NCBI GenBank assembly: GCA_903842345.1
Contig: CAIMLR010000035.1
Location: 1-64,000, forward strand
DNA length: 64,000 nucleotides
DNA from: an uncultured Myxococcales bacterium
Lineage (GTDB): Bacteria > Myxococcota_A > UBA9042
Direction: 5' to 3'
Shown here: positions 9,949-49,393 of the stretch, in pieces
Layout of the letters: every line of letters begins with the position of its first letter
How positions within the stretch are numbered: position 1 is the stretch's first letter
The notes under the pieces: model-generated
Told to the model about the DNA's origin: nothing
The model's database searches: none
Seen by the model: only the letters and a program-made list of their open reading frames with translations
Made by a program: the position numbers and the translations under genes

Positions 9949-10305
9949 ATGGCAATCATTCTCGCAACGACCAAGGACACGGTCACTCTTGTCCACTGCA
10001 ATGACCCCGACGTGAAGGCAAAGGAAGGCCAAGAGGGCTTCATTCCTGTTGGCGATGCTGCGGAAGTGGGCAAGGACGCTACCCGCGTCACCATCCGCCC
10101 CCTTGCAGGACACGAGATCCTTGCTACCTGGGGTGGCTCTGACTTTGGGGCTAAGTGCGTCACCATCGTCCTGAAGGCCGTGGTCAAGGTGGACGGGCAG
10201 ACGCCTGACGAAATGGCGATCAGGGAGTGGGGTTGGGATGTCCTCCGGGACTTGAAGGTCATCATTGAAGACCTCTCCACGGGCCCTACGGTAGCCCGCC
10301 TCTGA
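9949..10305 (+). CDS. tail assembly chaperone, short (zero-frame) form
   Basis: The protein has 118 residues and lies between the tube and tape measure genes, where lambda gpG-type chaperones are encoded. These coat the tape measure and recruit tube subunits and are absent from the mature tail. The sequence is mixed alpha/beta and ends VIIEDLSTGPTVARL. Near its end is a GGGCCCT slippery heptamer and a hairpin that should send a fraction of ribosomes into the -1 frame, giving the long form. The ribosome site is AAGGAAA before ATG 9949. Confidence 0.75.
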   Translation: MAIILATTKDTVTLVHCNDPDVKAKEGQEGFIPVGDAAEVGKDATRVTIRPLAGHEILATWGGSDFGAKCVTIVLKAVVKVDGQTPDEMAIREWGWDVLRDLKVIIEDLSTGPTVARL

Positions 10306-10649
10306 TTCTGGACGGTGGGCTTGAACCTGTAGATTGGGTTGAAAGATGGCGGCTTACGGCTGACCTAGCGGCTGACTTGGCCATGGTCAAGATGGATCAC
10401 CGCTGCGACCCAGACCAACCGTGTGACGGTCAAGGCTGGCAGTTTGACGGGCACGTCTTCAACGTCTGCCCGTATGACGCCCTGCAAGATCCCTACTTCG
10501 CAACGGCAAGCCACTTGGCCGATGCACAGGAAACGCAACCCTTGGCGGATTGGCCTGTGGGCTTCTCTTGGGGGATGTCATTCGCCATTCAGGTAATCAG
10601 GGCGGGCAGAATCCGAAAGGCTAGACGGGACGCAGCGGGGAACCTCTAA
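9949..10649 (+). CDS. tail assembly chaperone, long form made by -1 frameshift
   Basis: Slipping at 10281-10287 joins residues 1-113 of the short form to 120 residues read in the -1 frame, giving about 233 residues, the gpGT pattern. The -1 frame is open from 10269 to the TAA at 10647. It crosses the gap between the two annotated-looking frames with protein-like sequence (LEPVDWVERWRLTADLAADL). The region from TTG 10377 or ATG 10383 could also be read as a separate 90-residue gene, but it has no good ribosome site. The extension carries a Cys-rich patch, CDPDQPCDGQGW, then NVCPYD. The long form is expected to bridge the chaperone shell to the tape measure. Confidence 0.75.
10281..10321 (+). 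promoter_or_regulatory. -1 programmed ribosomal frameshift signal
   Basis: The slippery heptamer G GGC CCT lies at 10281-10287, in register with the zero frame, so both tRNAs can re-pair on GGG and CCC. After a 5-base spacer comes an 8-bp stem, AGCCCGCC at 10293-10300 with GGTGGGCT at 10314-10321 (one G-U pair). Its 13-base loop contains the zero-frame TGA (10303-10305). Order, spacing and location match known tail chaperone frameshift sites. Confidence 0.75.
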
Positions 10650-20841: not shown

Positions 20842-21071
20842 GCCGAGACACCTACCAAATCATTGATAACGTGGGCTTTGAACGATCCTCGGGCACGCGA
20901 TGGAAATTCGTTTGCTGCGATTGTGCCCTGACTCACGACGTTGCCCTGATTTCCGAGGATGGCAAGCCGATCGGGATTGCCATGGCACGAAACAAGCGGG
21001 CAACGACCTTGCGACGCAAGGCCAAGAAGGCTGCGGCAGAAGCCGACAAGGGGCAACATGAACTACGATGA
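20838..21071 (+). CDS. small basic phage protein, function unknown
   Basis: The protein has 77 residues. A compact N-terminal part holds the cysteine cluster FVCCDCALTH, perhaps a metal site, and a basic helical tail (RATTLRRKAKKAAAEADKG) follows. It overlaps the previous gene by four bases and the endolysin by 14. Placement between short lysis genes suggests co-translation with the endolysin. It could bind nucleic acid or be an endolysin regulator, but nothing decides this. Confidence 0.5.
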   Translation: MSRDTYQIIDNVGFERSSGTRWKFVCCDCALTHDVALISEDGKPIGIAMARNKRATTLRRKAKKAAAEADKGQHELR

Positions 21072-21534
21072 ACTTCTGACACGGGCACGGTCAGCCATTG
21101 GCCACGGCATCACCTACAAACTCGGTCACGGCGGGCTACACCCCGCCGATCCTCTGCCAAGTCGTGACGGGCAGTGTGACTGTAGCGGCTTCGTGGCCTG
21201 GGTTCTTGGACGCAGCCGTAACCCTGCGACAGCCCCAAAGTTGCCGCACTGGCCTTGGTGGCTGTCCACTGACTCTGTCTTTGCCGATGCCAACGGGGCT
21301 AACGTCCTGTTCACCAAGTTGGATCACGCCGTCCCCGGCTGCCTTGTCGTCTATGCAGACTGGCGGGATGCAGACGGTACGCACCACGAAGGACACATAG
21401 CGATCGTGGCTGACCCCGACAAGCACACGGTGGTTGACGCCTGCTCCAGCCAGAACGCGATCAGTGAGCACGTTCAGCCTGTGTTCTGGTCGGGACACCA
21501 TCCCGTGACCTTCTGCCAGTTCAAGGCAGCCTGA
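21058..21534 (+). CDS. endolysin, NlpC/P60-type cysteine peptidase
   Basis: The protein has 158 residues and is likely the peptidoglycan hydrolase that ends infection, cutting peptide stems. The catalytic Cys lies in DCSGF (Cys42), followed by the AWVLGR helix. The His is in EGHIAIV (His113), and the VVDA strand after it matches the NlpC/P60 fold. Length is typical of a stand-alone catalytic domain, and no cell-wall binding domain is attached. ATG 21058 was chosen because the longer frame from 20959 lies wholly inside the preceding gene. There is no signal peptide, so export depends on a holin. Confidence 0.8.
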   Translation: MNYDELLTRARSAIGHGITYKLGHGGLHPADPLPSRDGQCDCSGFVAWVLGRSRNPATAPKLPHWPWWLSTDSVFADANGANVLFTKLDHAVPGCLVVYADWRDADGTHHEGHIAIVADPDKHTVVDACSSQNAISEHVQPVFWSGHHPVTFCQFKAA

Positions 21535-47453: not shown

Positions 47454-49393
47454 GGCTTGGCCTCCGCGGCGGCGTCGCATGCGTGGCGGCGCCCGTCGAT
47501 TTCCAGCTTGACGCCGGTGCCGCAGAGCACGATGGCCGGCAGGACGGCGGTGAATTGCCCGGCGCGCGCGAGCACGCTGCCGCCCTGCTCCACCTGCAGC
47601 TGCGTCAACTGCGCGCGGACGTCATCCAGCCGCAGCGCCACGCCGGGGATGTCGGTAAACCGCAGGTCCGCGCCCTGGAAATGGCCACCGACGAGGCGCA
47701 TGCCAGCGTTCTGCTGCGACGCGCCGGTCACGGTCAAACCCGCGACGTCGACGTCGCCATCCAGCCACACAAGCGCGGCGCCCGGCTGCCAGACGTCCCG
47801 ACCTTGGCCGTTGGCACCGGAGACGTGCAGCGCCTGGATGTGCGACTGGTGCGCGCCCAGCACGACGACGCCGCCCCACGCCTGCGTTCCTTCCGCCGCG
47901 AGTTCCACGGGCGCATCCACCGTGCCGGCGACCGTCAGCCCGCCGTGCAGGACCAGCCACGCGTTCGCGCCAAACCGCAGCTTGGCGCCCGCCGCAATCT
48001 CCAGCCGCCAGCCCTCGGGCAGCGCCACCGTCGTCGGCACCGTCCAGACGCCCGCGGGCACCAGCAGCGCATGGCCGCCCACCGGCCCCACGTCCACCGC
48101 AAAGGGCAGCGCGAGGTGGGCATCGGTCGCTTCCTGCGGCAGAAAAACCACCGGCGGCGGCAGCATCGGCTCCACCGGCACGCGCTCGGCGGCCAAGAGC
48201 CGCATCGCCCGCTGGCGGACGACGAGCCACTGCTGCTGCCACGTCGCGGCGGCCAGCGTCGGCCACACGGCGTTCAGGTGGCGCTCCAGGCGCTGGTGGG
48301 TATCGGGCGCCAGCAGCCTTTCCGCCTCGGCGCGCAGCATCGTCTGGAACACCTGGCGAATCGGCGCGGCCGCCAACAGCCGCGGCAGCAGCGCATCCGC
48401 GCGCACGTGCGGCCCGGCGCGATCCGCGTCCAGATGGACAACCGGCTCCAGCCGCAGGGAAATCGGGTTCAGATACCAGCGCAGGGTCTGCCAATCCAGC
48501 ACGCGGTCGGCCAGCCCGGTCAGCTCCGCCAGCGCCATCAGCCGCGCGGTCGCCTCAATGTCCAGCACCGCCTCGGGCGCCAGCGTACCTGCGCGCAGGC
48601 CATCCAGCCGCGACTGCGCCCACGCGGTATGCGCCTCCAGCGGCGTGCCTTGCAGCCCCCGCGCGCTCGTGCTCCAGCGCGCCGCCTGCGGCGTCAGCAA
48701 CCAACCCGCCGCGTCCAAATCGACGCCCGCCGGCAGCACGGCTTCCCAGCCGACCAGCGCGCCCAGCGGCCGGTGCGCCGCGCGCAGCATCGCGCTGGAA
48801 GGTTCCTCGACGAGCACCGCCGCGCCCCAGCGCGCACCATTGACCCGCACGCCCACAGCCTGGATCCGCGGCGCAATGGCGCCCACCCGATCCAGCGCGT
48901 GGTACAGCATCAGCTCGCGCAGCAGCGACGGCTGGTTGGGATCCTCCAGCCGGAACGCGCGCATCCCGGCGTAGTCGCCCTCACCGCGCAGCTCCACCCG
49001 CAGCCGACCCAGCTCGCCCGGCGCGCGGCTCTGCGCCGGCCCCAGGAGAGACAGCGCCGCTTCCACCTGCCGCGAACCTTGGCGGATGCCAGCAAGCACC
49101 GCGCTCGGCTCCGGCGACGGCCGCAAGCCCTGCGTGCGCAGCGCCTGACGCCGGTCGCGCAGGGTCTGCAGTTGCCGAAAATGCACGTCGAGGAGGAGCT
49201 GCGGCAAGCGATCGTCGGTCGGGCCATCCACCAGCGTGCGGGCCATGCCGGACAGCGTGCCTTCCGCCGCCGGCCGCAGCCCACCGAGCGCGGCGCCCAG
49301 CACGACGCCAATCGCCAGGATGACGGCCATCACGGCGACGCGCTGCGGCCGCGTGCCACGGCGAATCTGCTTGGGGGAGACGTCGATGCGCAT
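47450..49393 (-). CDS. CotH-like kinase-fold protein with beta-helix
   Basis: The protein has 647 residues. One membrane helix lies near residues 21-43 (VAVMAVILAIGVVLGAALGGL), so the rest is probably outside the cytoplasm. The CotH pattern appears as RLRVELRGEG, MRAFRLEDPNQPSLLRELMLYHALDRVGAIAPR, VGVRVNGARWGAAVLVEEP. The C-terminal 150 residues (GGLTVAGTVDAPVELAA, GVVVLGAHQSHIQALHVSG) form a right-handed beta-helix. CotH proteins are atypical kinases that phosphorylate coat proteins. The substrate here is unknown. It lies between the DUF4956 and VTC-like genes. Confidence 0.8.
   Translation of the reverse strand: MRIDVSPKQIRRGTRPQRVAVMAVILAIGVVLGAALGGLRPAAEGTLSGMARTLVDGPTDDRLPQLLLDVHFRQLQTLRDRRQALRTQGLRPSPEPSAVLAGIRQGSRQVEAALSLLGPAQSRAPGELGRLRVELRGEGDYAGMRAFRLEDPNQPSLLRELMLYHALDRVGAIAPRIQAVGVRVNGARWGAAVLVEEPSSAMLRAAHRPLGALVGWEAVLPAGVDLDAAGWLLTPQAARWSTSARGLQGTPLEAHTAWAQSRLDGLRAGTLAPEAVLDIEATARLMALAELTGLADRVLDWQTLRWYLNPISLRLEPVVHLDADRAGPHVRADALLPRLLAAAPIRQVFQTMLRAEAERLLAPDTHQRLERHLNAVWPTLAAATWQQQWLVVRQRAMRLLAAERVPVEPMLPPPVVFLPQEATDAHLALPFAVDVGPVGGHALLVPAGVWTVPTTVALPEGWRLEIAAGAKLRFGANAWLVLHGGLTVAGTVDAPVELAAEGTQAWGGVVVLGAHQSHIQALHVSGANGQGRDVWQPGAALVWLDGDVDVAGLTVTGASQQNAGMRLVGGHFQGADLRFTDIPGVALRLDDVRAQLTQLQVEQGGSVLARAGQFTAVLPAIVLCGTGVKLEIDGRRHACDAAAEAKP

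Follow-up and report, generated by a model that had tools for sequence, protein, structure and literature searches.

A probable −1 ribosomal frameshift at a variant slip site in a myxobacterial prophage gene for a tail assembly chaperone

Introduction

Does a ribosome reading the first of two overlapping phage tail genes pass into the second, and if so, at which codon does it slip? The question is raised by two open reading frames, ORF1 and ORF2, in a 64,000-nt stretch of DNA from an uncultured Myxococcales bacterium, hereafter called the window. Tail-gene frameshifts are usually recognized via a slippery heptamer. The original prediction, made from the sequence of the window, named the heptamer GGGCCCT and proposed a −1 frameshift like that in the tail chaperone gene of phage lambda. 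Here, the two frames, the slip site and its hairpin are compared across related tail cassettes, and the resulting reading is weighed against its alternatives.

Results

The overlapping frames lie in a prophage tail region

Base 1 of the window is the first base of contig C35, which belongs to a 5.85-Mb genome. GC content is 58–60% at bases 1 to ~24,000 and 64–69% in the remainder of the window, and the low-GC part encodes a capsid protein, a terminase large subunit and a protein with a weak tail-tube match. Composition and gene content together mark bases 1 to ~24,000 as a prophage whose left end is cut by the contig end. A weak CHAP-domain match at 20959–21534 (E=0.0048, below the cut-off) is a candidate prophage endolysin. 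In the high-GC part, ARAGORN called a tRNA-Asp of 99 nt at 48206–48304, within long open frames; this is probably a false call because a normal tRNA-Asp is present on contig C24.

ORF1 and ORF2 had been placed between the genes for the tail tube and the tape measure. This position is seen (Table 1), with the tube protein weakly matched and the tape measure presumed. The presumed tape-measure protein has no Pfam match, and its best PHROG match (E=0.014) is to an unnamed family. The profile of the tail-tube family matches exactly the chaperone-bearing loci. Two overlapping ORFs in this position, the second in the −1 frame and with slip-capable sequence within the overlap, form the arrangement of a G/GT cassette, both neighbor assignments being weak.

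Neither ORF1 nor ORF2 matched a curated family above noise in the databases searched, Pfam and PHROGs among them. The predicted fold of ORF1 (pLDDT 82) gave one viral match below 0.001 in BFVD, to an unnamed protein, and many weak ones; named tail assembly chaperones account for 8/50 among the matches listed, only at E values of 0.03–0.3. A fold search of ORF1 against the PDB returned nothing usable. The name "chaperone" is owed chiefly to gene position, architecture and this weak fold match. The predicted fold of ORF2 (pLDDT 85) had no convincing match among viral models. Across the ten relatives described below, ORF2 has two invariant cysteines, a third in 9 of 10 and a conserved WP motif, which suggests a small T-domain that binds metal and resembles no Pfam or PHROGs family.

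The slip site and hairpin in the window

Several elements of the original prediction can be read directly from the DNA. GGGCCCT lies in register with the zero frame, whose codons across the site are ACG GGC CCT ACG GTA GCC CGC CTC TGA. The 5-nt spacer, the 8-bp stem and the zero-frame stop within the loop are all as described, one of the eight pairs being G-U. From 10269 onward the −1 frame stays open until a stop at 10647–10649 and yields the expected 233-residue product. Both frames are open together over 37 nt only (10266–10302), so any frameshift must be located there.

Table 1. Positions of the tail genes and frameshift elements in the window.
Feature	Position	Strand	Remarks
Probable major tail (tube) protein, 421 aa	8595..9860	+	Upstream neighbor; weak match to Pfam Phage_tube_2, E=0.0062, below cut-off
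ORF1, zero-frame tail assembly chaperone (gpG-like), 118 aa	9949..10305	+	AAGGA ribosome site
Slippery heptamer G_GGC_CCT, in register	10281..10287	+	Read from sequence
C_CCT tetramer, conserved slip unit (tRNA-Pro CCT to CCC)	10284..10287	+	The one re-pairing slip that each of the five C-class loci allows
5-nt spacer ACGGT	10288..10292	+	Equal length in C15, C36 and G002
Hairpin 5' arm AGCCCGCC	10293..10300	+	Predicted stimulatory stem
Zero-frame stop TGA, inside the 13-nt hairpin loop	10303..10305	+	Read from sequence
Hairpin 3' arm GGTGGGCT	10314..10321	+	94% of cells paired in four loci, two pairs changed on both sides
ORF2, −1 frame, T-like domain read post-shift	10287..10649	+	Conserved Cys and CP motif; fusion 233 aa
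Presumed tape measure protein, 804 aa	10686..13100	+	Length and position; GGAGGT ribosome site

GGGCCCT is not enriched in the window (6 occurrences against a shuffled expectation of 11.25). Among 6026 codon positions in the prophage genes, 14 (0.23%) carry an in-frame X_XXY_YYZ motif, and ~0.03 are expected in the 12-codon slip window. When the 42-nt stretch is shuffled by dinucleotides, the minimum free energy of the hairpin has p=0.013; in a longer stretch the hairpin is unremarkable (z ~ −1), and when the 3' arm is recoded synonymously P=0.15. The heptamer and stem in the window alone are mildly unlikely by chance, which is locally suggestive and would not convince. The case for a frameshift is strong because of the relatives, not because of these local statistics.

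Ten related cassettes carry two classes of slip site

Ten related tail cassettes were found in eight assemblies. Three are in the host genome, on contigs C35 (the window), C15 and C36; a profile search of the class (52 genomes) found those in G002, G004, G011, G013 and G016; and a tail-tube alignment identified two more contigs in IMG/VR (3300013126_000135 and 3300025848_002206). Within the class, the tail-tube and chaperone profiles agree on 8 loci, which lie in 6 genomes, and the tail-tube profile gave no further loci elsewhere among the 379 genomes of the phylum. Within IMG/VR, no relatives were returned by the chaperone alignments, by the tail-tube proteins of G002 and G013 or by the exact DNA pattern of the site; A4 was left out as too diverse for use. 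Protein comparison with annotated phage records gave no match, and Rfam held no frameshift element at the slip site. Genome matches in G231 and G264 were read through and rejected, with no phage tail loci there.

The three related tail regions of the host genome (G000) lie at C15:30000-42000 (L006), in the window on C35 and at C36:204000-216000 (L007). Chaperone proteins of the C15 and C36 prophages are ~60% identical to the window copy, and the tail-tube proteins 63–70%. Between ORF2 and the tape-measure gene, the C36 prophage has a perfect inverted repeat of 20 bp whose loop is 12 nt long (L007 6676-6727; TTGTTCCCCCAACGGGTCTT / AAGACCCGTTGGGGGAACAA). The repeat is absent from the window copy; it may be a terminator or else a small insertion.

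The gene order tail-tube, ORF1, −1 ORF2 is kept in 10 of 10 loci, and in each a sequence able to slip lies close to where ORF1 ends. Both the frame relation and the presence of a slip site are conserved in all ten, the sites falling into two classes. G_GGA_AAC is present in register in G004, G011, G016 and both IMG/VR contigs, with the zero-frame stop adjoining the site or three codons on. The remaining five loci, the C class, have zero-frame codons GGC CCT ACG (window), GTC CCT ACG (C15), GTC CCC ACG (C36), TCC CCT ATG (G002) and GGC CCT TTA (G013). Their sites take the forms GGGCCCT, GGTCCCT, GGTCCCC, ATCCCCT and CGGCCCT followed by UUA, respectively, and in 5 of 5 the zero-frame stop comes 22 nt past the first heptamer base. 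A maximum-likelihood tree of the tail tube and fusion protein splits the two classes with an ultrafast bootstrap of 100% (FastTree, 1.00); this tree is unrooted and does not give the direction of the site exchange.

The conserved slip unit is a tetramer

Each zero-frame codon in the overlap was examined for whether its tRNA could pair one base upstream. The shift from CCY to CCC is the sole re-pairing slip possible in 5 of 5 C-class loci; a common slip at any other overlap codon is excluded, since none re-pairs in all five. What differs is the codon beside CCY. In the window, both tRNAs of an X_XXY_YYZ site can re-pair (GGC to GGG, CCT to CCC), the P-site partner GGC doing so at two positions plus wobble. 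The partner in G013 is an A-site codon, TTA to TTT, which makes a classical C_CCU_UUA, and no good partner codon adjoins CCY in C15, C36 and G002.

The original prediction had asked for conservation of both frames and of the heptamer in homologous phages, and had named relatives with both proteins but no heptamer as evidence against itself. Both frames are conserved in the ten loci; the heptamer GGGCCCT is not. P-site re-pairing is gone in C15, C36 and G002, which read GGTCCCT, GGTCCCC and ATCCCCT, yet these relatives keep both proteins and C_CCY. In G013, CCU is paired with a 3' UUA instead, and again both frames are kept. The emphasis on a GC-only tandem heptamer has to be shifted accordingly: the conserved unit is C_CCY, and GGGCCCT is one local form of it.

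C_CCY has the properties of a Z_ZZN tetramer, in that it re-pairs cognately on ZZZ and has a candidate stimulator downstream. The tRNA-Pro set of the host genome is GGG, UGG and CGG. In an E. coli reporter study (PMC4066793), functional tetramers rank A_AAG, U_UUC, U_UUU, C_CCU = C_CCC and A_AAA, and their frameshifting is detectable only with a strong downstream stimulator. This need of C_CCU and C_CCC for a stimulator fits the hairpin at the window site.

Four C-class loci have the hairpin in one geometry: spacer 5 nt, stem 8 bp and loop 13 nt, the stop lying in the loop. These four are the loci without a 3' slippery partner codon; G013 is the C-class locus that has one. The alignment of the four stems, with 94% of cells paired, is in the best register of seven, and pairing falls to 28–47% when the partner is slid by 1–3 bases. 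Two of the eight pairs carry changes in both bases (C-G to U-A and A-U to G-C). This covariation is moderate evidence for a conserved stem because 32 of 500 shuffles of the four sequences match it. Synonymous recoding gives P values of 0.03–0.16 per hairpin-bearing locus, none individually beyond chance.

These comparisons suggest, with about an even chance of being right, that one clade of tail cassettes in myxobacterial prophages swapped G_GGA_AAC for a single-tRNA C_CCY site that depends on a hairpin, with no loss of either protein or of their −1 relation. Slippage in the window copy would in that case be chiefly that of tRNA-Pro, and GGC would merely assist. The chief alternative is a classical tandem slip of two tRNAs on G_GGC_CCU, in which the heptamer is the functional unit. 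We regard it as possible, if somewhat doubtful. The window heptamer is in perfect register and tRNA-Gly can re-pair as described; in the same E. coli reporters, 3 of 64 heptamers fall below threshold and G_GGC_CCU is not one of them, being above the positive threshold (PMC4066793). Taken by itself, the window copy does not distinguish tandem from single slippage. The P-site half, however, is lost in C15, C36, G002 and G013, yet both proteins are kept, which argues against the tandem slip.

ORF2 is unlikely to have its own start

If ORF2 were made separately, from its own start or by termination and reinitiation at the ORF1 stop, no shift would be needed. In-frame −1 starts do exist, TTG at 10377 and ATG at 10383 and 10392. 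None is preceded by a Shine-Dalgarno sequence, whereas ORF1 and the tape-measure gene each have one. The good ribosome site at a separate start that the original prediction named as evidence against it was thus not found at these codons. Furthermore, pN/pS in the −1 frame is 0.35–0.49 for the linker that runs from the ORF1 stop to the first −1 start; for the C15/C36 pair the value is 0.36 in that frame versus 0.95 and 1.45 in the other two. By this measure purifying selection acts on the −1 frame of the linker before any start codon is reached, the first one (10377/10383) falling beyond the conserved sequence. The conserved −1 linker and the starts without Shine-Dalgarno sequences together make independent initiation of ORF2 unlikely. 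As for reinitiation, the −1 codon at the ORF1 stop is CTG in the window and CTA in C15 and C36, so there is no conserved reinitiation codon. Separate synthesis of ORF2 by either route has little chance of being the explanation.

Across three loci, 7 of 10 third positions of ORF1 are identical in the last ten codons, compared with at most 4 of 10 elsewhere in ORF1, excluding windows that run into that end. Synonymous conservation in ORF1 is therefore highest at the slip site.

A sequencing error or a decayed gene, with the two frames belonging to one broken gene, is very improbable. The assembly is of metagenome type and the prophage, whose contig starts at the terminase region, is possibly defective, but the same −1 junction recurs in ten loci, eight assemblies and two sequence classes, with purifying selection in both frames, and the relatives refute this reading. 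Transcriptional rather than ribosomal slippage would yield the same fusion and is the most improbable of all, since the 37-nt slip window has no A or T run and its longest homopolymer is three bases.

Ten conserved cassettes, selection on the linker, −1 starts without Shine-Dalgarno sequences and the synonymous peak in ORF1 all point to the same reading. The tail assembly chaperone gene of this long-tailed prophage very probably undergoes a programmed −1 ribosomal frameshift of the lambda gpG/gpGT type. The homologous cassettes give this central claim of the original prediction good support.

Discussion

On the proposed mechanism, slippage would be infrequent, and the majority of ribosomes would stop at the TGA at 10303 to give the 118-aa G-type protein. 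A minority would be stalled by the hairpin 5 nt downstream with CCT in the ribosome and would move back one base, tRNA-Pro shifting from CCT to CCC. In the window copy, the preceding tRNA-Gly could also move, from GGC to GGG. The slipped ribosomes would continue to 10646 and produce the 233-aa GT-type fusion. By analogy with gpG and gpGT, the short and long proteins, in a fixed ratio, would presumably cover the tape-measure protein and bring in subunits of the tail tube.

The clean split between G_GGA_AAC and C_CCY is a natural experiment on how one slip site can give way to another while the fusion protein is kept. Cassettes such as those of C15, C36 and G002 would escape heptamer-only searches. 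Single-tRNA slippage at these sites, and its dependence on the hairpin, is a testable prediction.

The system belongs to a well-known kind, and its slip site is a variant. Its novelty is stated cautiously: PRFect reports several non-heptamer motifs, and the literature covered, in which no natural C_CCY tetramer in tail genes was found, does not include the main survey, Xu et al. 2004. The PRFect motif set, from actinobacteriophage tail chaperones, includes X_XXY_YYZ with any base per position together with motifs such as "twoonefour" (PMC10885494). GGTCCCC of C36 fits "twoonefour" if the name stands for run lengths; GGTCCCT and ATCCCCT have no obvious fit to a listed motif, and the host group differs (PMC10885494). 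Among the Z_ZZN motifs known from E. coli reporters and IS1/IS3, C_CCU and C_CCC are two of six functional tetramers, whereas the natural tetramers named in the text are A_AAG, U_UUY and A_AAA, in insertion sequences and not in tail genes (PMC4066793).

The closest comparison is with G004, G011, G016 and the two IMG/VR cassettes, which have homologous tail-tube, ORF1 and ORF2 proteins in the same order and the same −1 relation. They differ in using the classical G_GGA_AAC, whereas the window clade has C_CCY with the stop five codons on. Phage lambda gpG/gpGT likewise arises by a −1 frameshift in a tail assembly chaperone gene, without detectable sequence similarity to the proteins described here. 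Compared with lambda, where the slip site is of the X_XXA_AAG kind, the window clade has C_CCY or G_GGC_CCU and a hairpin that carries the stop codon in its loop.
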